Source: a virus
Virus record (IMG/VR): IMGVR_UViG_3300029319_000152
Span: 1 to 38,998 of that record
Reading direction: 5' to 3' (one strand)
DNA: 38,998 bases
Position numbers and translations under genes: made by a program. Shown piece by piece: positions 2,272 to 38,998 of this stretch. The notes beneath the pieces are model-generated. The model was given only the letters and a program-made list of their open reading frames with translations, made no database searches and was not told the DNA's origin. Positions within the stretch are counted from its first letter, which is position 1; each line of letters starts with the position of its first letter.

Positions 2272-3642
2272 TCAATCAAAGCCTTTTACATCTTTTTTCT
2301 TATAATCTTGATATTTTTGGCCTATTGTTTTTCTTAAAAACTCATCGTGGTTATTCATCTTCGTCTGAGTCTCTTTTCCAGCTTTACTACTTGCCTCGTA
2401 AATGTTCAAGTAGCCTGTATTCGTATTTATTGTTGAAGGGAAAGTTATACCATCTACCCCGAATCTGTTTTTGATTACGTGGAATCTACCTGTATTTGCT
2501 ATCTTGTCTTCTACCTTTCTACTCATACTCATTACAAAATCTGCCGTCATAACTTTTGAATAGTCTTCAGCCACTTTACTTGCATCAATGATGTCTTCTT
2601 CAAGTGAAGACCTATTAGCCTGTGAAGCAGTCCAAACAGGACATTTAAATTCACCTGCCATACCCCTTAACTCTTCATAGATGTTTCCTATTGCGTGTCG
2701 TTTTTCTTTGAAATTACCAATAGGTTTCATAATGTCAGCGTAATCAACAATAACCATATCAGGTTTATTATCAACTAACTCCATTTGTTTTATGTGACTT
2801 GCCAACGTTTGTGTTGACGCTGATTTTGTGGGAAAATATTTTATTAGTAAATAGCCAGGTAGATTTTTTAATTTAGCCTCTACCTCTTCTTGACTATATT
2901 TTAAATTGCCTGTAGGTACACCTGAGAATATTGTATCATATCTCAAGCCTACATAATTTTGATTTAACTCTAAAGTATAATGAACGACTTTTTTACCTTC
3001 TCTTACAGCGTGAGCACCAATTGATTGTAATGTCCAAGACTTACCTATACCCGCAGGTGCTACTATAACTCCTAATTCACCTTCACCTAATCCTCCGTCC
3101 ATAATTTCAGTTATACTATCCCAAGGTGTTTTCAAAGTATCTCTTGTAGATTTTGTCAAACGTTCTACTAATGAATCTAAGTATTCGTGACCTAAATCTT
3201 TTTCGGCACCGGCTCTCATCGCTGTATCAATCTTCGACTTGATTGAATCATAATCTTTTTTCTCTAACAAATCTACACTTTCAATAATAGCACTTTTTAG
3301 GACTTGATTTTTACAAAAGTCTAATGCAGTTTCTTGAACAAATTCTAAGTCAGGAGAGTCTATGTATCTAAAAACTTCCTTTAAGTTTTCAACTACACTT
3401 ACCTTCAGGACATCATTTTGAATCTCATCACTTTTTATCTTAAACACCTCCATAGTAGGAGGGTTCTTATACTTAATATAATAATCTTTTATAACACGGG
3501 CAAGCCATTTATTGCCTTCTGATTCAAAATAGTCTCCTTCTAATATGTCTATGATTGTTGATGTGAATTCGTTACTTTTTAGTAACGCTGATAATAATTT
3601 TATTTGAAAAGTAGGACCATATTGGTTCAATGCGTCTGCCAT
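2272..3642 (-). CDS. 41: Replicative DNA helicase, DnaB/gp41-like
   Basis: RecA-fold hexameric replicative helicase, 456 residues, like T4 gp41 (475 residues). It unwinds DNA ahead of the replisome with 5'-3' polarity. Walker A is APAGIGKS at residues 195-202, and Walker B is MVIVDYADIM with Asp300. The segment VVHYTLELNQ after Walker A has the catalytic Glu pattern typical of DnaB-family proteins. The N-terminal ~165 residues have the helical composition of the DnaB N-terminal domain. The ATG at 3642 shares its A with the TAA stop of the upstream 57-residue ORF, so translation is probably coupled. It sits in a replication block with FEN/RNase H, UvsX and gp32. No primase (gp61) or loader (gp59) is recognisable in this window. 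Confidence 0.9.
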   Translation of the reverse strand: MADALNQYGPTFQIKLLSALLKSNEFTSTIIDILEGDYFESEGNKWLARVIKDYYIKYKNPPTMEVFKIKSDEIQNDVLKVSVVENLKEVFRYIDSPDLEFVQETALDFCKNQVLKSAIIESVDLLEKKDYDSIKSKIDTAMRAGAEKDLGHEYLDSLVERLTKSTRDTLKTPWDSITEIMDGGLGEGELGVIVAPAGIGKSWTLQSIGAHAVREGKKVVHYTLELNQNYVGLRYDTIFSGVPTGNLKYSQEEVEAKLKNLPGYLLIKYFPTKSASTQTLASHIKQMELVDNKPDMVIVDYADIMKPIGNFKEKRHAIGNIYEELRGMAGEFKCPVWTASQANRSSLEEDIIDASKVAEDYSKVMTADFVMSMSRKVEDKIANTGRFHVIKNRFGVDGITFPSTINTNTGYLNIYEASSKAGKETQTKMNNHDEFLRKTIGQKYQDYKKKDVKGFD

Positions 3643-20700: not shown

Positions 20701-21358
20701 AGTCCGATGTATTGTTGTCTAAATCTAATCCTTTTATATCACTTGTACCAGGACCTCCATTCTGAGGTGCTCTGTTTCTCTTGAACCCTTCAACGTAAGT
20801 GTCTATGAAAGAACTATATTCAGTATACGAGCCACCTGTTTGTAATGTATTCGTTATAGGACTTTCATTGTTTGGAACTTTATACGTTAAGGACGGATTA
20901 AAAGTTTGAGTCATATCACTTGTGCCAGGTCCAAAATTAGATGGAGCTCTGTTTATTTTAAATCCTTCTACGTATGTATTGTTGAGAAAATCAACTGCTA
21001 ATGGTTCAGTAGAACTTGCCCATCCATAGTCAAAATCTCCTATAAAACTATTTTTAGGTATCAATGATGATGACTTGGCTTCAATATCTAAAAAGTTAAA
21101 TTGTGAATTTAATACATCTGCGTTAGGTGTAAAGCCTGAAGCAAAATCATCATTGAATAAATTTATCCCCTGTGTTGCTTGAATGTCACGTGTGTTGTAA
21201 CCGACCTGTGTTTCTGTAATGGGTAATGGTTCCTCTATGGGTCTATCAAAGGTTTGTTGACCTGTAACCAATCTGCCATTAGCCTCAAATGATTGAGGTT
21301 GACCAACTTGTGTATAGTCAAAAGAAGTAATGTTATTTAATAAATCAGTTAGTGCCAT
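17771..21358 (-). CDS. Tail/baseplate structural protein with N-terminal repeats, 1,195 residues
   Basis: Large virion protein just downstream of the tape measure. The N-terminal ~450 residues are repetitive: TYVEGFKINRAPSNFGPGTS (about 128-147) recurs as TYVEGFKRNRAPQNGGPGTS (about 187-206), with a related DSYVSGFVKDKVGQ later, and GNAKQISS...GPLYDRAEG is echoed by GNTKQISYSAGETLQEYAES. The C-terminal part has a compact domain (RRFLKFRATFADINDTITPQW, EIQLSFKIFPKSIVEFPFL, FIPGYMTSFSMNIVE, at about 930-1080) of a kind seen in baseplate/tube-initiator proteins of marine T4-like phages. It ends in a Pro/Gln/Asn/Glu-rich tail. Start is ATG sharing TAATG with the tape-measure stop. I infer a baseplate component around the tube; exact equivalence to T4 proteins such as gp48/gp54 is not established. 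Confidence 0.7.
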   Translation of the reverse strand: MALTDLLNNITSFDYTQVGQPQSFEANGRLVTGQQTFDRPIEEPLPITETQVGYNTRDIQATQGINLFNDDFASGFTPNADVLNSQFNFLDIEAKSSSLIPKNSFIGDFDYGWASSTEPLAVDFLNNTYVEGFKINRAPSNFGPGTSDMTQTFNPSLTYKVPNNESPITNTLQTGGSYTEYSSFIDTYVEGFKRNRAPQNGGPGTSDIKGLDLDNNTSDFVPTTNDTYKWSDKDTPFAVNFFDKFGSTSYSSFRLPNTNIPNQEDSYVSGFVKDKVGQGAFKGITDFTDLAEQFATKIKIGDSVFGTGTIGNAKQISSVESGPLYDRAEGNVNFRQDSKFIKNMELKKSRFFPQGAGSETPILNYYMNNVAIKVDNPFATGEQPTEFSIAPANQSFQYTESFVGGGVGNTKQISYSAGETLQEYAESRLKNRDQFIKFEKGKPNSEEFAETKDYVDFVRDVSYNPGIGFRQPFIVRKQGQEWGFDGNEENQDGFSFGSIVDAIDGIGSAFYRGATGFSGLLDREIQDKIRVGKYYLNNIGLFSLKQFVLQSQNPSIHTRIWNPFSLLSDNTFIRFNRHLGGDFIDPLPLPGTIKDFIKKAIPIDFEPWLTSSIIHQAEAGEELAAGGVTPQAPAAGDEPTGRFGRFVAAVGDAIDSATSLKQYKHLVLTDKPHYLSINLPGPLSKLKDRKRKLQSGFTFSNKFNGQLNTQAGFNQQTKPLAGGFPDEGAQFVGAYMGGKYDFLGDNDFEFAETGILNADETNVGQSGIGEDATTSGLSVLGESAGYQTEGYEGLGDQHDDSIADIVMQTAEGRALVMKTAPEVGMENTLLLRNSSKPYKRQLSIRVPGRNSKKDLAEYKEELYNTDRLFKTSEGLPSPGAIDPNTHDTVNATPITNVQEGTGLNSGQDFVNFQFRVTQYNEEGKPERRFLKFRATFADINDTITPQWNETKFIGRSDKVYTYSGTDREIQLSFKIFPKSIVEFPFLVEKLNMLAGANYPQYTKSDFMIGPLVDMKIGDMYDFIPGYMTSFSMNIVESSTWEIDLFEFPKNIDVSLGFRYIGKRRPHGLGAQFDIPYFNVNKTNQSNTTLGLEGDQALESPVYNGSMYLTQKEMDAAARQNGTRGDTPITNRAVFGYEDFISKSHRQVNNVDVPEPARPDDAQGGENPQEQTNQANEPAEGTNTEGGQPAPPNGTT
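20735..20977 (-). repeat. Duplicated TYVEGFK...APxNxGPGTSD module
   Basis: Two copies of a 22-residue module at about residues 128-149 and 187-208 of the 1,195-residue protein. They differ at only a few positions, which suggests an internal duplication of short modules in the N-terminal half. Confidence 0.7.
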
Positions 21359-23358
21359 TATCCATCTGCCGAACTTTGTTTTACTGCACTCACGATGCCT
21401 GAGTTACCGCTTGATATGATTGAACCTAAATTATTCAACGTTTCATTCATTGAATCAAATTTAGGACCTAAGTCGCTAACCGCCTTCGTTGTTTTATCTA
21501 TCTCAAGATTCATTGATGACATAGCTTGTGTACCCATAAATAAACTATCGTTAGATACTCCTTGAACGATTGTGTTGCCTGTTGACATTGAACCTTGACC
21601 TTGTGGTATTACAGCATCACTAACAGATTCTTTTACAGCAAATCCTAATGCACCTGCTCCGGCACCTATGGCACCACCTGTTATGGCTCCACCTTTCATA
21701 GCTGCAAGACCTGCGAGTGAAGACCCGCCTGTAAAAAATGCTAATCCACCTAATACTGCTCCTATCAAGGCTCCTAAAGTAGCAGCTAATCCTGCAAAAA
21801 GACCGAACTTTAACAATAAATTTTCATTTGTTTCTTCATTTTTAGAATTAAAAATATCTTCACCTGCAATCAACTTTGCCAATTGTTCATTGGATAAACC
21901 TAAATTATCTGTCAATGAAGCAACTTGAGCTGCGTTCAATTCAGAAAGGTCAGCTATACCTCCAAATTGGGCTCTTACTTCTCTTGCAAGTGTAGCAGAG
22001 TCTCTGTTAAAAGCTGCTTCTCGTGCCTTGTTTAGATTTATACTTTTACCAAACAAGACTTGTAATTCAGCTTCTGCAGCAATACTTGATTCTAAATCTA
22101 ATAATTTTTCACCTATCTGCGTAACAGCTGATAACTCAAGACCAAACTTACGTGTTTCAACCGCCGCTCTCGCTAACTCTTCAGCAGTTTTACCGAAGCC
22201 TATAGCACTATCTTTTGCTGCGGTAGCCACATCTTCAAAGACTGCACTTCTCAATATACCTCTTGAGTCTGCTATGGCCTTTACACCATCTAATCTCGCT
22301 GATGCCTCCTCTAAGGATTGTCCTGTTGATAAGGCTTGTAGATTGGTCAATGTAGCGATGTTCTCTGCTGATAATCCTGTAGCCGTTGCCAAGTCTGCAA
22401 AGTTACTTGCTAATTCAACAGATGATGAAGATGCGGTTCCTGTTTGTTTGGCAATCTCTGATACAGCTCCTGCTGCTACTTCAGCATTACCACCAAATAT
22501 TTTTGCCTGTAATGAAGCAACCGTTGTCTCTGCTTGTAGTTCAGCAGCTGCTCCTGCAGTAAGACCTAATTCATTTCTTAATTCGTTGGCACCAAGAACA
22601 AAATCTTTTAGAGAATTTACCAATAGACCTGCAACTGCTAATAGTGCAGTTTGCGGTGTGGCTAAAACACTTCCTATGTTTTCAAGTGTATCTTGAAAAC
22701 CCTTTATAGTATCAAGAAAAGGCAAGTCAGCATCTAAGGCATTTGTGACGGCATTGACTTGTTCTTCTGTCATCTTACCAAACTTATCTCCTATACCCTC
22801 AAACGCAGCTGCAAGACCAGGATTTGTCCTTATCTCATCAGCAAATTCATCACTTATCTCTTTAAATTTTTCATTGAAAGATGCTGGATTAAATGAACCT
22901 TCTTCAAGTTGGTCTATGGCATCCTGTCTTAAGGCTTCAAGTTTACTAAGACCTTGCGCCTCTTTGATATTACCTCTTTCTCTTGCTACATTTGCTGCTT
23001 CAATGAGTTGCTTATTACTCTTCTGTATACCGAAACCTTTTAGTATGAGGTCTGAATTTGCTTTTGCAGCTGAGTTGGCTTTCTTTGAGAGGTTAAATAA
23101 TTCTTTATCTAATTTTAATCTATCCTTAGATGAGGCTTTGGCTTCTTCTCTTTGGCTATTTAGTAGATTGGCAATTTCTTGCTCAGCCTTTATTTGTTTA
23201 CTTGTTAAATCAAGTACTTCTTTTCTTGCCTTTACACCAAGTTGACCTTCTTTATTATAACGTCTACCATCTTCCGTAATCTTCTTCTGTAGCTCTTGTA
23301 TTTCTTTAAGAGCCTTCTTGGCTTTGTCAAGTTTTTTTAAATCATCAAAATTTGCCAT
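21358..23358 (-). CDS. 29: Tail tape-measure-like protein
   Basis: 666 residues, in the tape-measure position: after gp26/gp51-like chaperone genes. The N-terminal ~180 residues are coiled-coil-like and highly charged (ALKEIQELQKKITEDGRRYNK...). A long Ala-rich helical region follows (for example AVSEIAKQTGTASSSSVEL, SNFADLATATGLSAENIA). Around residues 510-575 there is a strongly hydrophobic Gly/Ala-rich stretch (LFAGLAATLGALIGAVLGGLAFF and GGAITGGAIGAGAGALGFA) of the kind tape measures use to insert in the host membrane at DNA ejection. T4 gp29 is 590 residues, so a tail of about T4 length or slightly longer is expected under the tape-measure rule. Its ATG lies 10 bases after the preceding small gene. 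Identification is by features and position. Confidence 0.8.
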   Translation of the reverse strand: MANFDDLKKLDKAKKALKEIQELQKKITEDGRRYNKEGQLGVKARKEVLDLTSKQIKAEQEIANLLNSQREEAKASSKDRLKLDKELFNLSKKANSAAKANSDLILKGFGIQKSNKQLIEAANVARERGNIKEAQGLSKLEALRQDAIDQLEEGSFNPASFNEKFKEISDEFADEIRTNPGLAAAFEGIGDKFGKMTEEQVNAVTNALDADLPFLDTIKGFQDTLENIGSVLATPQTALLAVAGLLVNSLKDFVLGANELRNELGLTAGAAAELQAETTVASLQAKIFGGNAEVAAGAVSEIAKQTGTASSSSVELASNFADLATATGLSAENIATLTNLQALSTGQSLEEASARLDGVKAIADSRGILRSAVFEDVATAAKDSAIGFGKTAEELARAAVETRKFGLELSAVTQIGEKLLDLESSIAAEAELQVLFGKSINLNKAREAAFNRDSATLAREVRAQFGGIADLSELNAAQVASLTDNLGLSNEQLAKLIAGEDIFNSKNEETNENLLLKFGLFAGLAATLGALIGAVLGGLAFFTGGSSLAGLAAMKGGAITGGAIGAGAGALGFAVKESVSDAVIPQGQGSMSTGNTIVQGVSNDSLFMGTQAMSSMNLEIDKTTKAVSDLGPKFDSMNETLNNLGSIISSGNSGIVSAVKQSSADG

Positions 23359-23368
23359 AGTAGATTAT

Positions 23369-23551
23369 TTATACACCGTAGTGTTTCTTGAGTGCGTCTT
23401 CTAATTTTTTTTGTTTGTCTCTGAGGTCTTTTACTGCATCTTTTACTTCAGGGTTATCCTTTATCATTTTTTTCATCGTTCTATCAACACGACCTTTGGC
23501 GATACCCATAAAGAATTTATCTAAGAAACCTTCGTCTATTTGATTTTTCAT
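23369..23551 (-). CDS. Small basic helical protein, 60 residues
   Basis: A short gene between the gp51-like frame and the tape measure. The protein (MKNQIDEGFLDKFFMGIAKG...) is Lys-rich and helical, with a run of charged residues (RDKQKKLEDALKKHYGV) at the C-terminus that could form a coiled coil. It has a GGAG ribosome site (CGGAGAATCTCTATG) and an ATATTTAT element 26 bases upstream. I do not know its function. Its position in the tail-assembly block suggests a small tail or baseplate-assembly factor. The stop TAA is part of TATAAATA, a T4-type late-promoter string, only 8 bases before the tape-measure start; that is too close for a useful promoter. Confidence 0.75.
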   Translation of the reverse strand: MKNQIDEGFLDKFFMGIAKGRVDRTMKKMIKDNPEVKDAVKDLRDKQKKLEDALKKHYGV

Positions 23552-23592: not shown

Positions 23593-23799
23593 TCACTTTT
23601 TGAAACGAGGTAACTTGGCTTGTTTCTTCTTCATAGCCTTCTTTTCTTCCTCTTTGGCTTTTACCAAACGTTTGTAATGCCATCGGCGCATACCAATTGG
23701 CATATCATATAACTCTTTAAAATTATAAAACCCTTGACTATAGTAGCCAAGTTGGAAGATTTCCTCGTAGACTACTTCTTTATATTTTAACTGAAGGCC
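23593..23799 (-). CDS. 51: gp51-like baseplate hub assembly protein, reached by frameshift from gp26
   Basis: A 68-codon coding segment in the frame +1 (equivalently -2) to the gp26-like gene, open from 23814 to a TGA at 23593-23595. The protein (VYEEIFQLGYYSQGFYNF, YDMPIGMRRWHYKRLV, then a Lys/Glu-rich tail) resembles the small protein that follows gp26 in marine T4-like phages, pattern '..IFQ..YY..GF....VYNMP...RRF', and holds the gene 51 position of T4. There is no ATG, GTG or TTG before the conserved part; the first Met is in the middle of it (residue 33 after the shift point). The frame overlaps the end of the gp26-like gene exactly at a run of seven T. I therefore propose it is made as a gp26-gp51 fusion. 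A one-base homopolymer error in the sequence is the alternative explanation. Confidence 0.65.
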   Translation of the reverse strand, partial: GLQLKYKEVVYEEIFQLGYYSQGFYNFKELYDMPIGMRRWHYKRLVKAKEEEKKAMKKKQAKLPRFKK

Positions 23800-24523
23800 A
23801 AAAAAACTGAACGGTCATTGGGACCGTTACCTCCTTCATTTCACCCGACTCCATCTGAGCCTCTGTGACAAAATCTAAATCAGGTTCAACCTCAGAGATG
23901 TACTCTCTAAATGCTCTACTATCACCTGCCATAAAGGCATTGTCTATGAAATTATGTACTTCTTTCTCATCACGATTACCATTTACTGATGTGATTTGAA
24001 CTTTGTATCTATTGGTTAAAACTCTTGATTCACCTATCTTTTCATATGATTGATTCAAAGTGTCTATATCCTTTTCCATATGACCATCAATGAATTTGAA
24101 AGTTAATTTTACCTTACTCAAAGGTAAAGTGTATTTGACTTCATTTTCATTTTGTTTTGTTAAAATCTTTGAATCTAACCATTTTTCTTTTAATGATGTT
24201 AAATCAATTACAGCCTCTTCATCACCTATGGTACATTCATAATTCTTACCATAACCAAGAATACGTGCACCAACTAATACTGCGTTCTTATCACCTACAA
24301 TCATATCATCTAAGTTGATACTCTTGTCTACAATTAAACTTTGTAATAAAACATCAAGTGCTATTCCTTGTTGTATCAAGTTAGGAGAAGTCAAGATATC
24401 TTCTTCTTTAGCAGTCATATACTTGATTTCTACTTTACCTGATGATAAAGGACTTGTTTTGGGATATAATAATCCCTTTGAAGGTAATTCAATTACCTCT
24501 GTGGGAAATTTCATTTCAGACAT
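23780..24523 (-). CDS. 26: gp26-like baseplate hub / tail assembly protein
   Basis: 247 residues, resembling the gp26 proteins annotated in T4-like marine phages: MKFPTEVIELPSKGLLYP at the N-terminus, SSGKVEIKYMTAKEEDILTS and LIQQGIALDVLLQSLIVDKS next, and a C-terminus VPMTVQFFWPSVKI. The ATG at 24523 follows AGGAG (TTAGGAGTATTTATG). It is upstream of the tape measure, the place of tail-assembly chaperones in long-tailed phages; in T4, genes 26 and 51 are adjacent and act in hub assembly. No cysteine zinc motif is seen, although some relatives have one. The last codons contain TTTTTTT (23800-23806), the proposed slip site for producing a longer gp26-gp51 product. Confidence 0.82.
   Translation of the reverse strand: MSEMKFPTEVIELPSKGLLYPKTSPLSSGKVEIKYMTAKEEDILTSPNLIQQGIALDVLLQSLIVDKSINLDDMIVGDKNAVLVGARILGYGKNYECTIGDEEAVIDLTSLKEKWLDSKILTKQNENEVKYTLPLSKVKLTFKFIDGHMEKDIDTLNQSYEKIGESRVLTNRYKVQITSVNGNRDEKEVHNFIDNAFMAGDSRAFREYISEVEPDLDFVTEAQMESGEMKEVTVPMTVQFFWPSVKI
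23800..23806 (-). other. Candidate programmed frameshift site (T7)
   Basis: On the coding strand the gp26-like gene reads CAG TTT TTT TGG. A slip of +1 or -2 on the seven T would continue as GGC CTT CAG and enter the gp51-like frame. A -1 slip would stop after four codons. See the gp51-like entry. Confidence 0.6.
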
Positions 24524-24825: not shown

Positions 24826-25314
24826 TTAGAATTGTAAGACTGCGTAATCGTAACGTAGTGTACAAGTAATCTCTGCAGGTTCACTTACAGACCAATCTAA
24901 ATCACCAAAGTTGGCAGATTGTATATAAGTACCTTTCAAAGACCATTTCTCTACTACATCACCTACAGGTCCTAATAAGTTGAATTCAACATCTTTCTTA
25001 TAGAAATCACTATACCCATCACGTCCTGTAACAGACTCGTGACCAAGTCTAATCCACTCAATAACTGCTTGAGCACCACTCGGTACGATTGGGTCATATA
25101 ATGTGATATCAAGGGGCTGCCAAGAAGCCTTCCCTTTTACATATCTCTTAACGTTGATGTGATTTAACTCAACTTCTTCAAATTCTATTGAAGGGCGATT
25201 TGCTGCCCTTATTAAGAAACTTGGTACTCCCTCAATAAACATCACGAACCGATTCTTTGTCTTCGGTTCAAAGGGAGTAAAAAAGATTTCGTCAGCACCA
25301 ATTATATCAGGCAT
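24826..25314 (-). CDS. 19: Tail tube protein, gp19-like
   Basis: 162 residues, the same size as T4 gp19 (163). It forms the inner tube of the contractile tail. The N-terminal FEPKTKNRFVMFIEGVPSFLIRAANRPS and the following VKRYVKGKASWQPLDITLYDPI are characteristic of T4-type tubes; GRDGYSDFYKKDVEFNLLGP and LKGTYIQSANFGDLDWS complete the beta-sandwich, as does the C-terminal CTLRYDYAVLQF. ATG at 25314 follows AGGAGAACAAAA. It is separated from the sheath gene by 171 bases holding a terminator and an ATATTTAT element, suggesting that tube and sheath have separate transcripts. Confidence 0.92.
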   Translation of the reverse strand: MPDIIGADEIFFTPFEPKTKNRFVMFIEGVPSFLIRAANRPSIEFEEVELNHINVKRYVKGKASWQPLDITLYDPIVPSGAQAVIEWIRLGHESVTGRDGYSDFYKKDVEFNLLGPVGDVVEKWSLKGTYIQSANFGDLDWSVSEPAEITCTLRYDYAVLQF

Positions 25315-25485: not shown

Positions 25486-27939
25486 TTATTCAGGGAATGA
25501 AGCGCCTGTTGGTAAGACAACAAAATCAAGTACAATGAACTCTGCAGTTCGTGTAGGCTGTACAAAGATTTGTCCTACTAATTGGTTTCTATCAATCACA
25601 TCAGGAGTGTTATTGGAATCATCCATTACTACTCTGAAGGCTGATAGACCTGAGCGTTGTTGTACCGACTCTAAATAAGGATTAACCGTATTTAAGAATC
25701 TCGCTCTTGTCGCTGATGTATTCTGTTCAAAAACTAAGAATCTTGATGTTGAAGCAATAAATTTCTTCAAGTTGATTAATAATCTTCTCACGTTAACTCT
25801 GTCAAGTGCTGAAGGTCTTGCTTGTAAGGTCTTTTGACCAAATACAGCTATACCTTGTTGTGGGAACTTGGCAATAGGATTGACTCTACCCTCATACAAT
25901 GTATCACGATTGAGATGAGTTAGAACGGTCTTAACATCAATAGCCGATATACCACCTCTATTCAAACCGGCGGGAGCGAACCATTCTTGACCTATAGAGT
26001 CATTCTGTGCATAGACACCACCAATTACAACTGATGGCGGTACCCATCTGTCAACACCTGTACCTGTTGCTATTTTCACCCATGGAAAATAAGTAGCAAC
26101 AAAGTTGTTGTCAAGTGAAGAAACGTCACTTACAGCATTATCAACTGACCTACCCCAACGTGAACCATCCATAATATAAAATGTATCACCTCTATCTTTA
26201 CAGATTGAAATAGCTCTGTTAGATATTGAAGAGTGATACTCGTGGATAACTCCTGGAGTAATCAATAGATTAATATCAATAAAGTCAGGGTCACTAATCG
26301 TACCTAATGCTCTCTTATATGCTAAACTACCACTTGCATTTCCATTAGACATATCAAAGCCGAAAGAATTGGCGCTTGATATATCACCCTCTTTAGCTTT
26401 ATGCACTGCTGGATTCATACCATCAAATCCCCATTGAAAAGGTACTGCAAACTTACGTTGTCTAACGTTAGTTGCTGCACCCAATGATAGATTTGTTGCT
26501 GAATTAGCAAATCCTGATTGTCCTGAAACGGTACCTTTCATATCCTCAAGTGAGAATGTTACGTTACTACCTACGGTAGCACTTGCAGGTATTTCAGATA
26601 AATAAGATTGGTTCACATAATTAGTAGATGCGAAATCAAAACCAAGATTTATACTATCTGAAAAGTTTCCATTTTCATCAGAACTTGTTACAAATGACGC
26701 AGTTGGTACGTTAGCACCACCTACGGTTGGATTCTCTACTGCTCCGAATCCCATTGGAGCTAATGATTTCAATGAGGCTCCTAATGTATCAAGTTGACTA
26801 AAGTCACCAACACGTATGTATTGAGACCTTGCTGGATAGTTACCATATTTGGTAATTTCACCACTTGCATTAGTTTCTTCAAACATATCACCAATTTGTT
26901 GTGCAAAGTAGTTTGGACTTTCTTTATCAAAGTTCAATCTATCAAACGTTTCAACGTTATCAAATTTAGTTGGGTCGTCACTTCTACGTTGAAATACTTG
27001 TAGTTTAAACATAGCAAAGTCAGGTGCACTATTATTAGCAGCTGCAGCTTTTACATCACTAACTACTGCGTACACATTATTGCTTATTTCCGAACCATGA
27101 CTTCTTGTATAGATTCTAAATAAGTTCTGTCTACCACCACCTATCAACTGAGATTGTAGATATGGTGAACGAGCAAAACTAAAAGAACTATTACCTGTCC
27201 ATGTATTAGCAGTACCATCTGAACCAAAACTTTGAACTCCTGTTGAAAAGTTAATTGAACCGGAATCGAGTTTTAAATTATATCCTGCTAAAGTAGCACT
27301 ACTTGCTACTGAACTACCATTATTAAACCACTTGTACATATAAGCACTTTTGTTATTGTCTTGTGGGTTATCTGATAATTGATTCAAATCAGCACCGTCA
27401 AATCCTGCATATACAAGTTCGGCAGTAACGTCTGAACCTGATAGTACAAGATTAGCTACACTTGCAGCTGATGATGTTGGAGCTACGTTTGAACCTGTAT
27501 ATTCTGCGCTCACGTTTGTCACAAAACGTGTTCCGGATAAATCACCGGTACCGCTTGTTTTTCTTGATGGTAACAAAGTAGCCAATACTTTTCCTGCCAA
27601 TGGTCTTGCTGCAGCAGCAGCGCCACTACCTGTTAAGACAACGTTGACAAAGTCTACCGTGTAACCACCTATGCCTAATACCCTAACAACGGTTACTGAT
27701 GGAGCTCCTCCATTCAAATAACGTTGTACAGCCATTGGCACATATAATCCTTCTGTATCTCCCAACTCGCCAAATATTTGACCATATTGAGATTCTGATG
27801 TAATTACGGTTGGTGTAAAAGCAGGACCTTTTATAGTTGGTCCTACGATAGCTGCCCCTATCGCTTCTACTCCTGCGGGAAGAAAAGATAAATCTTTCTC
27901 TCTCGTAAATACACCAGGACTTACAATTCTTTCTGCCAT
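25486..27939 (-). CDS. 18: Contractile tail sheath protein, gp18-like
   Basis: 817 residues (T4 gp18 is 659). The N-terminal MAERIVSPGVFTREKDLSFLPAG and GAAIVGPTIKGPAF are typical of T4-type sheaths. The C-terminal region has the conserved FAPAGLNRGGI (as WFAPAGLNRGG), INPIAKFPQQGIAVFGQKTL-like, RVNVRRLLINLKKFI and FVVLPTGASFPE segments that form the handshake-linked core. The central, Ser/Gly/Asn-rich region (about 130-480) is an expanded variable domain exposed on the outside. The ATG follows AAGGGAGAAACATA. A strong terminator follows. The extra length over T4 is in the protruding domains. Confidence 0.93.
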   Translation of the reverse strand: MAERIVSPGVFTREKDLSFLPAGVEAIGAAIVGPTIKGPAFTPTVITSESQYGQIFGELGDTEGLYVPMAVQRYLNGGAPSVTVVRVLGIGGYTVDFVNVVLTGSGAAAAARPLAGKVLATLLPSRKTSGTGDLSGTRFVTNVSAEYTGSNVAPTSSAASVANLVLSGSDVTAELVYAGFDGADLNQLSDNPQDNNKSAYMYKWFNNGSSVASSATLAGYNLKLDSGSINFSTGVQSFGSDGTANTWTGNSSFSFARSPYLQSQLIGGGRQNLFRIYTRSHGSEISNNVYAVVSDVKAAAANNSAPDFAMFKLQVFQRRSDDPTKFDNVETFDRLNFDKESPNYFAQQIGDMFEETNASGEITKYGNYPARSQYIRVGDFSQLDTLGASLKSLAPMGFGAVENPTVGGANVPTASFVTSSDENGNFSDSINLGFDFASTNYVNQSYLSEIPASATVGSNVTFSLEDMKGTVSGQSGFANSATNLSLGAATNVRQRKFAVPFQWGFDGMNPAVHKAKEGDISSANSFGFDMSNGNASGSLAYKRALGTISDPDFIDINLLITPGVIHEYHSSISNRAISICKDRGDTFYIMDGSRWGRSVDNAVSDVSSLDNNFVATYFPWVKIATGTGVDRWVPPSVVIGGVYAQNDSIGQEWFAPAGLNRGGISAIDVKTVLTHLNRDTLYEGRVNPIAKFPQQGIAVFGQKTLQARPSALDRVNVRRLLINLKKFIASTSRFLVFEQNTSATRARFLNTVNPYLESVQQRSGLSAFRVVMDDSNNTPDVIDRNQLVGQIFVQPTRTAEFIVLDFVVLPTGASFPE

Positions 27940-28325: not shown

Positions 28326-29810
28326 TTATATTTCTTCAAAATCAAATTTCATTTTCTTTTTTGCTGTATTCTTTTTTGAAGGTTTTGATGATTCAATAAA
28401 GCTTTTATGATATACTTCGGGCCATATGGCCTGATACCAAGTTGTTAAAATATATTTATCGTCTGATAATGGAGTTTCAGCATAATGCACGTAAGGAAAA
28501 GAAGTTGGAAATGCAAGATGTTTTCCTGCTTCACATTTTACTGCACTTCTTGCAAAAGGAAATACCGTTCTACCGCCCTCTTCTACATCGTTTAAATAAA
28601 ACATACTTGTAAAGATTCTATTACCATATTCATACATATGGCTACCTTCTGTATGCCAGGATTCATAATGTCCTATTCCTTTTTCGTATTTATGTATTTC
28701 CCACATCGGATAGTAACGTCCATTTAAATGTAATTCATCTGCATTGTAATGTTGTAACATCCCATATTTTCTTGTATAGTTCAAAATACAATGGTCTGAT
28801 ACTTTTTCTAATGCACCAATATATTTAACTCCTTCCGGTATAAGCATTAAATCAAGCTCTCCTGTATCTTTAGTATCAGGGTCTATTCCTTTATGTGTAA
28901 GTCCTGCATCAACTTTATCTTTCTTAGCATATTCTTCATACAAATCAATAAGTTCTGTGCATACATTTGAAGGTATAGTGTCTTTTGTTATGTGAACAGA
29001 ATCCATAAAATGTTCCATAGTTTTTGCTGAGTATTGACCTCCTATCATACTTACATTAGTATCTATGTTTTTCATCTTGACATCGGGAGGACCTTTTTTA
29101 GTAGAGGTAAACATAAAAGAGTCTATTGGTTTGACTAAATCTTTTTTGTCTTTTCGCATTTTATATTTTTTAGATTTATTCTTTTTTGCTTCTTTTGTGT
29201 AAAAAATTTCTTCGTAATTATTTTTTAGATTGTACTGAAATTCATCTCCATCAAATCTTGTATGATGTCTCATACTATCATTATCTAAGACGTAATGTAA
29301 AAACAATTGAGAATACCAATCTCCTACAAATTTATTTCTATAATGAGAAACGTTATGACCAAGATATACTATAGCATCTCCTGGTTTCTGCACGACTTCT
29401 ACTGATTTTTTACTTTGTAAATCTGTCACATATATTGGATAAGGACTTGATTGTCCAATGTTTATTGTAAGTGATATTTGACACCAAGGCCAATCTGAAT
29501 GATGTGACATTTCAGCACCTTGCATATAAGTTCTCTGATACGTATAAATTGGTATTAGTTTTTCATCAACTATTGTCTCTACATCTTTTAGAGAACTATA
29601 TAAAGTATTCTGCCAAACAGGATGTGAATTTACATTCCAAGTCATCGGATGTACTCCTGCATCGCCATCTCCTATTTCACCTCCTCCTAACAGAAGTTCA
29701 CCGTTATTCATAGAATTAACAACTTGATATAAAAAATAGTCTGTTTGTACTTGACTATAAAAGCCTTCTATAACTTGATAACCGTGTGTGTATAACATAT
29801 CATTCATCAT
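28326..29810 (-). CDS. Two-domain 2OG-Fe(II) oxygenase, prolyl-4-hydroxylase-like
   Basis: 494 residues with two oxygenase cores. The first (about 90-175) has HSDWPW, giving the HxD pair, and GHNVSHYR with the distal His and Arg. The second (about 365-475) has ESWHTEG, an HxE pair instead of the usual HxD; FYLNDVEEGGRTVFPF, which is the YLN...GG.T.F signature of prolyl 4-hydroxylases; YVHYAETPL with the distal His; and DDKYILTTWY with the Lys that binds 2-oxoglutarate. A Lys-rich linker (about 205-240) joins them. The enzymes hydroxylate protein side chains using O2 and 2-oxoglutarate. The start overlaps the next oxygenase gene's stop. The nearby collagen-like fibre and tail proteins are plausible substrates, but this is inference. 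Confidence 0.85.
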   Translation of the reverse strand: MMNDMLYTHGYQVIEGFYSQVQTDYFLYQVVNSMNNGELLLGGGEIGDGDAGVHPMTWNVNSHPVWQNTLYSSLKDVETIVDEKLIPIYTYQRTYMQGAEMSHHSDWPWCQISLTINIGQSSPYPIYVTDLQSKKSVEVVQKPGDAIVYLGHNVSHYRNKFVGDWYSQLFLHYVLDNDSMRHHTRFDGDEFQYNLKNNYEEIFYTKEAKKNKSKKYKMRKDKKDLVKPIDSFMFTSTKKGPPDVKMKNIDTNVSMIGGQYSAKTMEHFMDSVHITKDTIPSNVCTELIDLYEEYAKKDKVDAGLTHKGIDPDTKDTGELDLMLIPEGVKYIGALEKVSDHCILNYTRKYGMLQHYNADELHLNGRYYPMWEIHKYEKGIGHYESWHTEGSHMYEYGNRIFTSMFYLNDVEEGGRTVFPFARSAVKCEAGKHLAFPTSFPYVHYAETPLSDDKYILTTWYQAIWPEVYHKSFIESSKPSKKNTAKKKMKFDFEEI

Positions 29811-30571
29811 CTAACTCCAAAGTTACATCCGTCAAAATTTGATTTGACTCTATAATTTATTGATGCTGACCTTCTTCTTTTTTCAGATATAAAAGGATAG
29901 ACACCATGCAATAATGATGCAGGAAATATCAAAAAAGTTCCTCGTTTAGGTCTATATTGAAATTGTCCTAATTCAAAATATTGATTACTATTGTATATTA
30001 TATGTAATAAACCGTCTTCTGTAGTGCCTTGTTTGTGTACATTGTCACCGAGTAAAAAACTATCTGTCTGTGTTGGTGCTATTATATCATCAATAAAATC
30101 TTCGTCTAAATCATCAAAGAAGAATACCGTGGTTAAATTACACTCAGGATGATAATGAAAAGGATTGTATTCACCACTTTTCATTGAATTTACCCAAGAT
30201 GACATTCTTACAACATCTACTCCTATGTCCAATTCTACTTGATTTTTTTCTTCAAAACCACTTTTCATAGCAAAGTTATTAGTGTTAATACTCCTTTTAG
30301 CTACTTCAGATACGTACTTTACAACTATGTTGTCTAAAAAATCTCCTAAATTACCATATTTAAGCTTTCCTTCATCAATGGTCCATTCGTCATCTATTCT
30401 TCCTGCTAATCCTTTTCCGTGATTTTTATTTTGAGCCTCTATAACATTATCTATTATTTTTTCAAACTCATCAAGTATTACATCAGGCATCTTGCCTATC
30501 AAAACAGATGGACCGAAAGGAGATATAAATTGATATTTTACTTTACTAAATTGTGTTCGTTTTTTTGACAT
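29807..30571 (-). CDS. 2OG-Fe(II) oxygenase, phage type
   Basis: 254 residues. The C-terminal half has the fold signature of the phage 2OG-FeII_Oxy_5 group: NPFHYHPECNLTTVFFFDD (metal-binding His region), GTFLIFPASLLHGVYPF (distal His) and EKRRRSASINYRVK (Arg that binds 2-oxoglutarate). The N-terminal part contains KVKYQFISPFGPSVLIGKMP, typical of the leading strand region of these phage enzymes. Such genes are widespread in marine T4-like phages, close to tail-fibre genes, and their substrates are unknown. It overlaps the two-domain oxygenase by four bases, so the two are co-translated. An ATACTTAT element lies 15 bases before its start. Confidence 0.85.
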   Translation of the reverse strand: MSKKRTQFSKVKYQFISPFGPSVLIGKMPDVILDEFEKIIDNVIEAQNKNHGKGLAGRIDDEWTIDEGKLKYGNLGDFLDNIVVKYVSEVAKRSINTNNFAMKSGFEEKNQVELDIGVDVVRMSSWVNSMKSGEYNPFHYHPECNLTTVFFFDDLDEDFIDDIIAPTQTDSFLLGDNVHKQGTTEDGLLHIIYNSNQYFELGQFQYRPKRGTFLIFPASLLHGVYPFISEKRRRSASINYRVKSNFDGCNFGVR

Positions 30572-32037: not shown

Positions 32038-35000
32038 TTACTCCTTGTCGTTAATTTTATCAGATAATTCTTTTACTGCTTCAATCAAGAGAGGTACCAT
32101 CTTATCATATCTTACAGCCTTGATACCTGTCTTTCTTGTTGCTACTACTTCAGGTAGTACTTCTTCAACTTCTTGTGCGATGACACCAATGTCTCTTCTT
32201 CTCATAAAGTAATCATCCTCACCACCCTTTTCGTTCATAAATTCATCGTTCCAATCATAAGTATAACCTGAAATCTTATTAATCTTATTTAATGCGCTAG
32301 GTATCTTTTCAATGTTATGCTTTAGTCTTCTATCAGAAGAGTAGAAAGCTATAACATCACCCTCACATCGTACGGTATCTGTAGCAGCTGAACTAAATGT
32401 AGCGCCATTACCTACGTAGAGAGCGTCTATTGAAACTGAACCTGCATTGAAGTTTACTGCATCACCACCTGAGGCACCTTGAGCACCTTGAGCACCTGTT
32501 GGTCCTTGAGAACCTTGTACACCTTGAGCACCTTGAGCACCTGTTGGGCCTTGTCCACCTTGATTTCCTGTTGGGCCTTGAGCACCTTGAGGTCCGGTAG
32601 CACCCTGTGGGCCTGTTGCACCCGTGACTCCTTGAGCACCTTGAGCACCTGTTGGTCCTTGAGCACCTTGTGGTCCTTGTGCCCCATTGGCTCCTTGAGC
32701 ACCTGTATCGCCTGTTGGTCCTTGACCACCTGTTGGTCCTTGTGCACCTTGTGGACCTGTGGCTCCATTGGCACCTTGTGGACCTGTTGGTCCATCTTCA
32801 CCTTGGTCGCCTTGAGCACCTTGAGGTCCTGTTGCACCTGTGACTCCTTGAGCACCTTGAGCACCTGTTGGTCCTTGTGCCCCTTGAGGTCCTGTTGCAC
32901 CATTGGCACCTTGTGCCCCTATGTCACCTTGTCCACCTTGAGCACCTGTTGGACCTTGAGCACCTTGTGGGCCTGTGGCTCCATTGGCACCTTGTGGTCC
33001 TGTTGGCCCATCTTCACCTACTTCACCTTGTGCACCTTGTGGACCTGTAGCTCCATTGGCACCTTGAGCACCTGTGGCTCCTGTTGGTCCTTGTGCCCCT
33101 TGAGGTCCTGTTGCACCCTGTGGGCCTGTGGCTCCATTAGCACCTTGAGCGCCTGTGGCTCCTGTTGGTCCTTGAGCGCCTTGTGGTCCTGTGGCTCCTT
33201 GAGGTCCTGTGGCTCCGTCAGCACCTTGAGCACCTGTATTTCCTGTTGGACCTTGTGCTCCTTGTGGGCCTGTGGCTCCTTGAACTCCTTGTGGTCCTTG
33301 AGCACCTGTTGGGCCTTGTGCTCCTTGTGGACCCGTGGCACCTTGTGCCCCTTGTGGTCCTAATCCACCATCTTCACCCTGGTCACCCTGTGCTCCTTGA
33401 GGTCCTGTTGCACCCTGTGGTCCTGTGGCACCATCGGCTCCTTGAGCACCTGTGGCTCCTGTTGGGCCTTGAGCACCTTGAGGTCCTGTTGCACCTTGAA
33501 CTCCTTGTGGTCCTTGAGCACCTGTTGGGCCTTGAGCACCTTGAGGTCCTGTTGCACCTTGAACTCCTTGAGGGCCTTGAGCACCTGTTGGTCCTTGAGC
33601 ACCTTGAGGGCCTGTGGCTCCTTGAACGCCTTGTGCTCCTTGTGCACCTGTTGGACCTTGTGCCCCTTGAGGTCCTGTGGCTCCTTGAACACCCTGTGGT
33701 CCTAAATTTCCATCTTCACCCTGGTCTCCTTGTGCTCCTTGTGGACCTGTTGCACCTGTAGGTCCTTGTGCACCTTGTGGTCCGGTAGCACCCTGTGGGC
33801 CTGTTGCACCCTGTACTCCTTGAGCACCATCTACACCTTGTGGTCCTTGATTTCCTGTTGGACCTTGAGCACCTTGTGGGCCTGTTGCACCTTGGTCTCC
33901 TGTAGGTCCTTGTGCCCCTTGAGGTCCTGTGGCACCTTGAACTCCTTGAGGTCCTTGAGCACCTGTTGGGCCTTGTTCTCCTTGTGGTCCCGTGGCTCCT
34001 TGAACACCCTGTGGTCCTTGACCTCCTGTTGGACCTTGTGCTCCTTGTGGTCCTGTTGCACCATCTGCACCTTGAGCACCTGTGGCTCCTGTTGGTCCTT
34101 GTGCCCCTTGTGGACCTGTAGCTCCCTGTACTCCTTGAGGGCCTTGAGCACCTGTTGGACCTTGGTCTCCTTGCGGTCCTGTTGCGCCATCGGCTCCTTG
34201 AGCACCAATTGCCCCTTGTGGTCCTGTTGGTCCATCTTCACCTACTTCTCCTTGAGCACCTTGAGGGCCTGTTGCACCTTGTGGGCCTGTGGCTCCTTGA
34301 ACTCCTTGAGCACCATCTACACCTTGTGGTCCTGTGGCTCCTTGAACACCCTGTGGTCCTTGAGCACCTGTTGGGCCTTGAGCACCTTGAGGTCCTGTGG
34401 CTCCATCAGCGCCTTGAGCACCTGTGTCTCCTGTAGGTCCTTGTGCTCCTTGTGGACCTGTTGCACCTTGAGGTCCTGTATCACCCTGTGGACCTGTGGC
34501 ACCTTGTACTCCTTGAGCACCATCTACTCCTTGAGGTCCTTGATTTCCTGTTGGACCTTGAGCACCTTGAGGTCCTGTTGCTCCTTGAGGTCCTGTATCT
34601 CCTTGTGGTCCTGTTGCACCTTGAACGCCTTGTGCACCTTGTACACCTTGTGGTCCTAAATTTCCATCTTCTCCTTGGTCTCCTTGTGCCCCTTGTGGAC
34701 CTGTTGCACCTTGAGGTCCTGTAGCACCATCTGCACCTTGAGCTCCATCGGCTCCTTGTGCCCCTATATCTCCTTGTCCGCCTTGAGCACCTTGAACTCC
34801 TTGAGGTCCTTGAGCACCTGTTGGACCTTGTTCTCCTTGTGGTCCTGTGGCTCCTTGAACTCCTTGTGCTCCGTCTACTCCTTGTGCTCCTTGAACACCT
34901 TGTGGTCCTTGATTTCCTGTTGGTCCTTGAGCACCTTGTGGACCGGTATCTCCTTGAGGACCGGTATCTCCTTGAGGTCCTGTGGCTCCGTCAGCACCTT

Positions 35001-38000
35001 GTGCACCTATAGAACCTTGAGCACCTTGAGCACCTACAGGTCCATCTTCACCTACTTCACCTTGTGCGCCTTGAGGTCCTGTTGCACCTTGTGGTCCTGT
35101 GGCACCTTGAACGCCTTGTGCTCCATCTACGCCTTGAGCACCTTGTACACCTTGTGGGCCTTGATTTCCTGTTGGACCTTGAGCACCTTGTGGACCCGTG
35201 TCTCCCTGTGGTCCTGTATCTCCTTGAGGTCCTGTAGCACCATCTGCACCTTGAGCTCCATCTGCTCCTTGTGCTCCAATAGAACCTTGAGCACCATCTG
35301 CACCTTGAGCACCGGTATTTCCTGTAGGTCCTTGTGCTCCTTGTGGGCCTGTTGCTCCTTGAGGTCCTGTATCACCTTGAGGACCTGTTGCCCCATCGGC
35401 TCCTTGAGCACCAATTGCCCCTTGTGGTCCTGTTGGTCCATCTTCACCTACTTCACCTTGTGCTCCTTGAGGTCCTGTGGCTCCTTGAACTCCTTGTGCT
35501 CCATCTACACCTTGAGCACCTTGTACACCTTGTGGTCCTTGATTTCCTGTTGGACCTTGGTCTCCTTGAGGGCCTGTTGCTCCATCGGCTCCTTGTGCCC
35601 CTATGTCACCTTGTCCACCTTGAGCGCCTGTAGGTCCTTGTGCCCCTTGAGGTCCTGTATCACCTTGTGGTCCTTCAGCTCCTTGAGGTCCTGTTGCTCC
35701 CTGTACACCCTGTGCCCCGTCTACACCTTGAGCACCTTGTACACCTTGTGGGCCTTGTCCTCCTGTTGGTCCCTGAGCGCCTTGAGGGCCTGTGGCTCCG
35801 TCAGCACCTTGAGCTCCAATAGAACCTTGAGCTCCATCGGCTCCTTGTGCCCCTATATCTCCTTGTCCACCTTGAGCTCCTTGGTCTCCTGTAGGTCCTT
35901 GTGCCCCTTGAGGTCCTGTTGCTCCCTGTGGTCCTGTATCTCCTTGTGGGCCTGTTGCACCATCGGCTCCTTGAGCACCAATTGCACCTTGAGCACCTTG
36001 AGCACCTACAGGTCCATCTTCGCCCACTTCTCCTTGAGCACCTTGAGGGCCTGTGGCACCTTGTACTCCTTGAGCACCATCAACGCCTTGAGCACCTTGA
36101 ACGCCTTGAGGTCCTTGATTTCCTGTTGGTCCTTGTGCTCCTTGTGGACCTGTATCACCTTGTGGACCGGTATCTCCTTGTGGTCCTGTAGCCCCATCAG
36201 CACCTTGAGCACCATCTGCTCCTTGAGCACCTGTATTTCCTGTTGGGCCTTGTGCACCTTGTGGGCCTGTAGCTCCCTGTGGACCTGTATCTCCTTGAGG
36301 TCCTGTGGCACCTTGAACACCTTGTGCTCCGTCTACTCCTTGTGCCCCTTGTAATCCTTGTGGTCCTAAATTTCCATCTTCTCCTTGGTCACCCTGTGCT
36401 CCTTGTGGACCTGTTGCACCCTGTGGGCCTGTGGCTCCGTCAGCACCTTGTGCCCCGTCAGCACCTTGTGCTCCTATGTCTCCTTGTCCGCCTTGAGCAC
36501 CACCTGGTCCTGTTGCACCTTGTGGTCCTGTTGCACCTTGTGGGCCTGTATCACCCTGTGGGCCTTCAGCTCCTTGAACGCCTTGTGCTCCATCTATACC
36601 TTGAGCACCTTGAACTCCCTGTGGTCCCTGTCCGCCTGTTGGACCTTGGTCTCCTTGAGGACCTGTGGCTCCGTCAGCACCTTGAGCTCCAATAGAACCT
36701 TGAGCACCATCATCTCCTTGTGCACCATCAGCACCTTGAGCACCTATGTCGCCTTGTCCTCCCTGTGCTCCTGTAGGTCCTTGAGCACCTTGAGGTCCTG
36801 TTGCACCTTGAGGTCCTGTATCACCCTGTGGGCCTTCAGCTCCTTGAACACCTTGTGCTCCGTCTACTCCTTGAGCACCTTGTACACCTTGTGGTCCTTG
36901 AGCACCTGTTGGGCCTTGAGCACCTTGAGCACCAACTGCACCTTGTGGTCCTGTTGGTCCATCTTCACCTACTTCACCTTGTGCTCCTTGAGGGCCTGTT
37001 GCCCCTTGAGGTCCTGTTGCACCCTGTGGTCCTGTGGCACCATCGGCACCTTGTGCACCGTCATCTCCTTGTGCTCCAATAGAACCTTGAGCACCATCTG
37101 CACCTTGAGCACCTGTATTTCCTGTTGGACCTTGTGCTCCTTGAGGTCCTGTTGCTCCTTGTGGACCCGTGTCTCCCTGTGGTCCGGTATCTCCTTGAGG
37201 TCCTGTTGCACCCTGTACACCCTGTGCTCCATCTACACCCTGTGCTCCTTGAACACCTTGAGGGCCTTGATTTCCTGTTGGACCTTGAGCACCTTGTGGA
37301 CCTGTGGCACCATCGGCTCCTTGAGGTCCTGTCGGTCCATCTTCACCCACTTCTCCTTGTGCACCTTGTGGTCCTGTTGCACCTTGAGGTCCTGTTGCTC
37401 CGTCATTACCTTGAGCTCCATCGGCTCCTTGAGCACCTATAGAACCTTGAGCACCATCGGCACCTTGTGCTCCTATATCTCCTTGTCCTCCCTGTGCGCC
37501 TGCAGGTCCTTGTGCTCCTTGTGGTCCCGTGTCTCCTTGAGGTCCTGTGTCACCTTGTGGGCCTGTTGCACCCTGTACTCCTTGAGCACCATCAACGCCT
37601 TGTGCTCCTTGTAATCCTTGTGGTCCTAAATTTCCATCTTCACCTTGGTCTCCTTGAGCACCTTGCGGTCCGGTAGCACCCTGTGGTCCTGTGGCTCCAT
37701 CAGCACCTTGTGCTCCGTCTGAACCTTGAGCACCTATATCGCCTTGTCCTCCCTGTGCTCCTCCTGGACCTTGTGCCCCTTGTGGTCCTGTTGCTCCTTG
37801 TGGTCCTGTATCACCTTGAGCACCAACAGCACCATTAGCACCTTGAGCTCCATCAGAACCCTGTGCTCCTATATCTCCTTGATTTCCTGTTGCGCCTTGA
37901 GGTCCTGTAGCACCATCACTTCCTTGAGCACCATCAGCACCTTGAGTACCATTAGCACCTTGAGGTCCTGTTGGCCCATCTTCTCCTTGGTCACCTTGAG

Positions 38001-38998
38001 CACCTTGTGGGCCTGTAGCTCCCTGTGGACCTGTGGCTCCGTCAGCACCTTGTGCCCCGTCAGCACCTTGAGCTCCTCCATCACCCTGTGCTCCTAAATC
38101 TCCTTGTGCTCCTGAATTTCCTTGTGCCCCATCGGCTCCTTGAGCACCTGTGTTTCCTGCTGGACCCTGTGCTCCTTGAGGACCTGTGGCACCTTGTGGA
38201 CCTGTATCACCCTGTGGTCCTACTGCACCATTGGCTCCTTGTGCTCCGTCATTACCTTGAGCACCTTGAGCACCAACTGCACCCTGTAATCCTTGTGGTC
38301 CTAATCCTCCATCTTCTCCTTGGTCACCTTGAGCACCTTGAGGTCCCGTGGCTCCCTGTGGTCCTGTAGCACCTTGAGGTCCTGTAGCACCATCACTTCC
38401 TTGAGCACCATCACTTCCTTGAGCACCATTGGCTCCTTGAGCACCATCATTACCCTGTGCTCCTAAATCTCCTTGTGCTCCTTGAGCACCTCCTGGTCCT
38501 GTTCCTCCCTGTGGTCCTGTATCTCCTTGTGGTCCTACTGCACCTTGAGCGCCTGAGGCTCCTTGAGCTCCATCAGCACCCTGTGCTCCTAAATCTCCTT
38601 GTGCTCCTTGAGCACCTTGTACACCTTGTGGTCCTAAATTTCCATCTTCACCTTGGTCTCCTTGAGCACCTTGTGGACCTGTTGCTCCTTGAGGCCCTGT
38701 TGCGCCTTGTGGTCCTGTGGCTCCGTCAGCACCTTGAGCTCCATCATTACCTTGTGGGCCTGTTGCACCTTGAGGTCCTGTAGCCCCATCGGCTCCTTGA
38801 GCTCCATCGGCTCCCTGATTTCCTGTAGCTCCTTGAGGACCTGTGGCTCCTTGTGGGCCTGTATCACCCTGTGGTCCTACTGCACCATTGGCTCCTTGTG
38901 CACCATCGTGGCCTTGTCCACCTTGAGCACCTTGTACACCTTGTGGTCCTAAATTTCCATCTTCACCTTGGTCTCCTTGAGCACCTTGTGGACCTGTA
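32038..38998 (-). CDS. Giant collagen-like tail fibre with S74 self-cleaving chaperone (partial, 5' end outside)
   Basis: Open in one frame from the window edge (first full codon at 38997) to the stop at 32038, at least 2,319 codons; I read each line in frame and found no stop. A GTG at 37350 is the only start-like codon reported within it, and is not the true start because Gly-X-Y repeats continue upstream. About 2,177 residues are continuous Gly-X-Y, mainly [18 protein letters not shown], with no interruption seen, no Lys or Arg and no Cys. After a 45-residue beta-like neck ([16 protein letters not shown]) comes a Peptidase_S74 chaperone: SDRRLKHNI has the Ser and Lys of the autocleavage dyad, so the last 99 residues would be released after trimer folding. 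It is probably a trimeric triple-helix tail fibre. Confidence 0.92.
32041..32337 (-). other. Intramolecular chaperone domain (Peptidase_S74)
   Basis: The final 99 codons of the fibre gene. The segment opens with SDRRLK (Ser and Lys five residues apart, as in the K1F endosialidase chaperone), then [24 protein letters not shown] and [19 protein letters not shown], all typical of S74 domains. Cleavage is expected just before the Ser at the start. Confidence 0.85.
32467..38997 (-). repeat. Gly-X-Y coding repeat (9-base period)
   Basis: About 725 Gly-X-Y triplets encoded with a strict 9-base period. The coding strand is purine-rich and clearly higher in GC than the rest of the window. Synonymous codons vary (GGT/GGA, CCA/CCT, CAA/CAG), so neighbouring repeats are not identical at the DNA level. 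Acidic GEDG-type cassettes recur about every 220-590 bases. Confidence 0.9.

Follow-up and report, generated by a model that had tools for sequence, protein, structure and literature searches.

In tail assembly chaperone (TAC) frameshifts of the lambda G/GT type, reportedly described by Xu, Hendrix and Duda in 2004, a short form and a frameshift-extended form are encoded in the interval between the tail tube and tape measure genes, with the slip near the 3' end of the first gene and a classical shift of -1 on X_XXY_YYZ. According to a 2016 review, long-tailed phages share a conserved G-T frameshift, 'except T4' (PMC5009743). The T4 proteins gp26 and gp51 are regarded as the short and long chaperones, and some T4-like phages as carrying poly-T -1 signals, a view that PMC10885494 and PMC12846349 appear to credit to Vladimirov, Gautam and Davidson (2022). 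The three arrangements thus named are the ones against which we compare a new locus below, together with two systems from outside the T4-like phages.

Bacterial prfB, the gene for RF2, has an efficient +1 arrangement in which CUU or UUU in the P site is followed by U and by a slow A-site codon. CUU and UUU before U have accordingly been called +1-prone (PRFect paper, PMC10885494, citing prfB work). Phage Mu uses a -2 frameshift (PMC5009743) in gp41, a tail chaperone encoded between tube and tape measure whose +1/-2 frame is entered near a homopolymer next to CGA, at a site resembling CGG GGG CGA.

The locus studied here lies in the IMG/VR virus record IMGVR_UViG_3300029319_000152, analysed over its full 38,998 nt and called the window hereafter. 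It resembles the lambda type in its two forms, its place and its late slip site, but differs in direction: the C-terminal domain (C-domain) is in the +1/-2 frame, the predicted shift is +1 (or -2) on UUU_Y/CUU_U, and the canonical -1 arrangement (X_XXY_YYZ, C-domain in the -1 frame) is not the one seen in the window clade. The best explanation of this locus, and in our judgement a probable one, is a gene for a tail assembly chaperone in which ribosomes undergo a programmed +1 frameshift.

A probable chaperone pair in the tail module

The gene order in the window, with coordinates on the minus strand, is tail sheath (25486..27939; phrog_23 E=2.5e-65, PF17482 E=1e-9), gp19-like tail tube (24826..25314; phrog_4542 E=4e-28, PF06841 E=6e-4), a 69-residue ORF, the chaperone pair, a charged 60-residue protein (23369..23551) and a probable tape measure protein of 666 residues (21358..23358). 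Family profile searches gave no match for the last of these; it has a charged, helix-like N-terminus and hydrophobic segments, and its position matches that of the 'tail tape measure protein' of Flavobacterium phage immuto. A small ORF occupies the place of the 60-residue one in immuto, SP-15 and Mel-JY01, and the order of sheath, tube, pair, small ORF and tape measure is common to the window, immuto and SP-15. Because of this neighbourhood of sheath, tube, pair and tape measure, we assign the pair to the tail chaperones. A previous sequence-only reading had placed the pair just upstream of the tape measure, which is borne out, with the 60-residue ORF between them and the tape measure itself probable.

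The first ORF (24523..23780, minus strand) encodes the gp26-like short product of 247 residues, which ends in VQFFWPSVKI, with FFW coded by TTT TTT TGG (23798..23806, minus strand); the seven T's, T1 to T7, occupy 23806..23800. The +1/-2 frame is open from after a TGA (23817..23815, minus strand), 8 nt upstream of the T run, to a stop at 23595..23593, and codes for a C-domain (23593..23799, minus strand) that reads GLQLKYKEVVYEEIFQLGYYSQG...FKK before the stop. When we re-read the coordinates, this junction proved to be as originally described, as did the lack of any ATG, GTG or TTG in the window among the codons of the gp51-like frame through its conserved N-terminal half. In the window, the C-domain would be accessible solely via a frameshift, and a +1 slip is predicted to give a long form of about 309 residues.

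Relationship to T4 gp26 and gp51

The profile phrog_150 ('baseplate hub') matches the short form of the window (E=1.9e-7), T4 gp26 (E=6.7e-71) and T4 gp51 (E=2.6e-84), reaching profile position 235 in gp26 and 280 in gp51. The short forms of relatives end at about position 233, while the fused products of Mel-JY01 and LR756508 reach 273-274, and judged by these end positions the short form is the counterpart of gp26 in extent, and the long form that of gp51. The phrog_150 match of the window's own fused protein is no longer than that of its short form. Direct profile comparison of the window-clade C-domain with the gp51 C-terminus aligned the two at the C-terminus with E=0.061; the cyanophage C-domain links them, matching the window-clade C-domain at E=3e-5 and the T4 gp51 C-terminus at E=1.2e-6. 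The label 'gp51-like' given earlier to this frame holds, as judged from these profiles, for the C-terminal domain of gp51 and by an indirect route through cyanophage homologues.

Pfam contained no match for either half of the pair. An AlphaFold model of the short form (mean pLDDT 92.9) matched an SP-15 baseplate hub subunit and T4-like hub assembly proteins in BFVD; its top PDB match, the HK97 tail assembly chaperone 2ob9, was not significant (E=1.0, prob 0.35). We infer that the window pair is a TAC pair related to T4 gp26/gp51, its N-domain belonging to phrog_150 with both T4 proteins and its C-domain resembling the gp51 C-terminus. The organisation in T4 is different. Genes 26 and 51 are adjacent, as the sequence-only reading had stated, but they are divergent, and because they lie on opposite strands T4 itself cannot use such a frameshift; its short and long forms come from two related genes, whereas in the window the pair overlaps and the shift is into the +1 frame.

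Conservation of the frame relation and proposed slip site

The sequence-only reading had proposed that the slip site might be conserved inside the FFWP motif of related phages, and this is exactly what we found. The +1/-2 relation, joined at FFWP, is present in all 80 of the best IMG/VR homologues (47-62% identical), and after further scans beyond these had enlarged the set to 155 unique loci of the window clade, it was kept in 153, with the C-domain conserved in sequence and in the same frame. It is likewise present in all seven readable MAG loci and in the isolates Flavobacterium phage immuto, Microcystis phage Mel-JY01, Rhodothermus phage RM378 and huge phage LR756508, and the more distant isolates SP-15, LIS04 and Streptococcus phage GXN1 agree. 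One locus (L004) had been put in a -1 class by its longest open stretch (67 versus 70 residues); reading its conserved domain overturned this and placed it in the +1/-2 class.

The commonest site is TTTTTTTGG (TTT TTT TGG, 102 of the 155 loci); the others, which include TTTCTTTGG, TTCTTTTGG and TTTCTATGG, are TTT CTT TGG (28), TTC TTT TGG (11), TTT CTA TGG (4), TTT CTT TAC (3), TTT TTT TTC (2) and, once each, TTT TTA TGG, TTT TTT TAC and TTT CTA TTC. The A-site codon at these slip sites is UGG, UUC or UAC. Alignment of the junctions of relatives, as had been suggested, upheld the frame relation but not the T run itself as the conserved element, which on this comparison is rather a slip-competent codon, UUU_Y or CUU_U, kept in frame in 153 of the 155 loci.

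This variety of sites bears on two alternatives. Homopolymers are error-prone, and a sequencing or assembly error splitting one gene had been named as the main alternative to a frameshift; because the relation is conserved in more than 150 separate contigs, many with no homopolymer at the site (TTTCTTTGG, TTTCTATGG), it is refuted, and we give it practically no credence. Under transcriptional slippage, RNA polymerase would add or drop bases in the T run and the altered mRNA would be translated normally into the long protein. The seven-T run of the window and of most of the 155 loci suits this explanation, yet in nearly 50 loci the run is broken (TTTCTTTGG, TTCTTTTGG, TTTCTATGG), no more than 3-4 T's stand together and the frame relation is unchanged, and we consider slippage very improbable.

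In a codon alignment of 126 non-redundant genes, we compared observed with expected synonymous differences per codon. The ratios of the site codons (0.26, 0.07, 0.17 and 0.02) are the lowest of the whole gene; the 231 other codons have a mean of 0.91 (SD 0.19) and a minimum of 0.41. The constraint on the Pro codon and the one after it is partly double coding, and that on the two Phe/Leu codons precedes the reading of the new frame under the +1 model. Stops close in on the site from both sides, with a +1-frame stop 2-8 nt upstream in 47 loci and the 0-frame stop 6-18 nt after TGG, and because these flanking stops are so close, hardly any other place is left for the shift to occur. The pattern lies far outside what chance would give, and conservation in 153 of the 155 loci together with the synonymous constraint strongly supports the earlier proposal that a programmed frameshift joins the gp26-like protein to a domain like the C-terminus of gp51.

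Alternatively, the C-terminal ORF could be a gene of its own, its initiation either independent or translationally coupled. Public records of Mel-JY01, S-SM2 and RHph_I34 do annotate separate ORFs, and the two loci that lack the slip motif, L104 (TTC TTG TAT) and L109 (TTC CTT TGG), have the C-domain in the -1 frame with its own ATG directly after the stop (site near 3205 in each). The start codon predicted to be missing is indeed missing in 47 of the 153 loci, the window included, which have no ATG, GTG or TTG from the upstream stop to 45 nt past the site; in the remaining loci start codons are scattered in position, and independent initiation would leave the constraint on the slip codons unexplained. 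A separate gene is, in our estimate, slightly less probable even than slippage. As read from their sequences, L104 and L109 are evolutionary replacements of frameshifting by independent initiation, in which the slip site was lost and a start codon gained.

Probable direction of the slip

Some +1 slip on UUU_Y or CUU_U fits all 153 loci. The second codon (UUU_U or CUU_U) is compatible with +1 in 147, and the remaining six (TTTCTATGG, TTTCTATTC, TTTTTATGG) cannot slip +1 there and need the first (UUU_Y). The window's own site taken alone permits both +1 and -2, and so do those six. In a programmed -2 frameshift at the same site, the tRNA of the second codon (TTT, CTT, CTA or TTA) would re-pair two bases back with TTT or TTC and an extra residue would be read (FFFGL). 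This alternative gains from the T at the third base of the first codon in 142 of the 153 loci, from the precedent of Mu, and from the sites with A at base 6 (TTTCTATGG, TTTTTATGG), where the tRNA of the second codon would re-pair well after a -2 shift but poorly after a +1 shift.

Strict -2 was in fact our first reading, drawn from TTTCTATGG and TTTTTATGG, but we gave it up as a rule for the whole family once the TTC TTT TGG loci appeared. In all 11 of these tRNA-Phe would land on UCU, which leaves 142 of 153 loci that -2 can fit, and the site of Streptococcus phage GXN1, TTC TTT CGT, likewise speaks against it. A -2 slip would moreover tolerate TTT TTC TGG, yet the 116 Phe-Phe sites comprise 105 TTT TTT, 11 TTC TTT and no TTT TTC. 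Some 19 of these 116 were expected to be TTT TTC, given that TTC accounts for 21% of the Phe codons outside the site. Judged by tRNA re-pairing rules, +1 is favoured over -2 by roughly four to one, and we regard a -2 shift as unlikely. The direction first proposed, +1/-2, thus stands as a frame relation; as a slip for the whole family, -2 fails at the 11 loci.

These results set the window clade beside prfB, with a P-site CUU or UUU that can re-pair at +1 (UUU_Y or CUU_U in 153 of 153 loci), but with a UGG sense codon in place of the UGA stop. Mu shares the position of its chaperone gene and likewise enters the +1/-2 frame close to a homopolymer; it differs in sequence, and its -2 shift does not suit all sites of the window family.

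Candidate stimulatory signals

In prfB a Shine-Dalgarno sequence lies 3 nt upstream; at this RF2-like spacing from the P codon we found no consistent element in the family loci. Shine-Dalgarno-like words occur mainly at about -27 to -32, with GGGGT at -9 in 27 loci. At about the place of the prfB element, the window has a hairpin, AACGGUC-CCAAU-GACCGUU, with a 7-bp stem 3 nt before the slip site (23828..23810, minus strand; -8.5 kcal/mol), more stable than expected both by dinucleotide shuffles (z -1.87, 9 of 200 shuffles as stable) and by synonymous-codon shuffles (z -2.8). Across the family, the 33-nt stretch leading up to the site has a mean z of -1.2 against -0.16 in control windows by synonymous shuffles, an excess that is small by dinucleotide shuffles (-0.65 against about -0.3), and a stem of at least 5 bp lies upstream of the site in 71% of the family versus 21-55% elsewhere. 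On 70S ribosomes, a hairpin upstream of CUUUGA can act in the manner of an internal Shine-Dalgarno sequence and stimulate +1 frameshifting there (PMC6321510). The data are suggestive only, and the upstream hairpin may stimulate the frameshift. Structure downstream of the site in the window clade was discarded as a signal: its z of -1.43 by synonymous shuffles became -0.12 by dinucleotide shuffles, and because the excess vanished in this way we attribute it to composition.

At 23817-23837 (minus strand), the window also has AAGGAGGU followed by an in-frame AUG (VTVPMTVQFFW), which resembles an internal ribosome site immediately ahead of the slippery codons; purine-rich codons of the Glu-Glu-Val type account for at least part of the resemblance of AAGGAGGU.

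Apparent frameshift direction across the chaperone family

The T4-like cyanophages, among them S-CAM8 and S-SM2, have a homologous gene with the C-domain in an alternative frame and a Phe-rich site at its very end. Unlike the window clade, all 61 unique cyanophage loci have a canonical -1 heptamer (U_UUU_UUC in 58, with UUA in place of UUC in two and UUG in one). This site ends 3 nt before the gp26 stop codon in 60 of the 61 (S-CAM8, L089, 3974-4684, and L116-L195), and structure downstream in the cyanophage loci is more stable than in synonymous shuffles. In the S-SM2 record, the C-domain is annotated separately as a 'baseplate hub assembly catalyst'. Sites of the same -1 kind occur in Aeromonas phage avDM6, Vibrio phage PG216 and Rhizobium phage I34; XacN1 has U_UUU_UUU, and the Ackermannviridae a weaker -1 site. 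In the jumbo phages LR756511 (L085, 4001-4801) and XacN1 (L092, 3941-4780), a -1 frame like the C-domain follows U_UUU_UUC or U_UUU_UUU.

On sequence comparison, the lineages of this chaperone family appear to differ in their solution, some shifting by -1 and others by +1 (or -2), with two genes in T4. Because a probably frameshifted homologue of T4's own proteins, that of the window clade, stands beside the two-gene T4 and the -1 cyanophages, one gene family appears to sample all three solutions. The +1 class of the window clade was not described in the literature that we searched, and it is probably a new, unusually well conserved variant of a frameshift already known in other phages. With it comes a natural collection of candidate +1 sites, strongly conserved and with sense codons in the A site, a kind of site for which to our knowledge few general motifs are known. 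The analysis also points to the probable long chaperone, otherwise hidden, of a very common group of environmental myoviruses; in the public record of immuto, the C-terminal half of the chaperone (L082, 6732-6995) is unannotated.

Proposed mechanism and hosts

We propose that the majority of ribosomes would continue to the TAA and make the 247-residue, gp26-like short chaperone. A minority would stall when tRNA-Phe is paired with UUU (in many relatives, tRNA-Leu with CUU) and the A site presents a slow codon, usually UGG, then move one base ahead as UUU_U or UUU_C is re-paired as UUU or UUC. In the window, the P-site tRNA would slip +1 on UUU_U while UGG occupies the A site; GGC CTT... would be read next, adding the C-terminal domain of the long form. 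If lambda G/GT is a guide, the tape measure would be coated by the short form, and recruitment of tail tube subunits would fall to the long one.

The hosts of the window clade are probably Bacteroidota, because immuto infects Flavobacterium and the MAGs are mostly from this phylum: the eight genome hits are mostly Flavobacteriia or other Bacteroidota, MAG binning not being proof of a host. Mel-JY01 infects a cyanobacterium. Bacteroidota ribosomes make little use of Shine-Dalgarno pairing. Tentatively, and as a possibility rather than an expectation, we suggest that a hairpin behind the ribosome has replaced the internal Shine-Dalgarno sequence and drives sense-codon +1 frameshifting at UUU/CUU_UGG in a large, mostly uncultured and apparently Bacteroidota-infecting clade, and that within one homologous family the frameshift has changed direction, from -1 to +1 or the reverse.

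Other features of the window

Rfam and tRNA searches of the window returned no family and no tRNA. Next to the tail sheath gene, a 494-residue protein (28326-29810, minus strand) has an N-terminal match labelled ferrochelatase and a C-terminal match to a 2OG-Fe(II) oxygenase; a second 2OG-Fe(II) oxygenase follows at 29807-30571, both adjoining the sheath gene. In the region 32038-38998, which is of unusual composition and possibly encodes a long repetitive protein, a GTG-started ORF runs to 1770 residues and both strands have numerous long ORFs that overlap.
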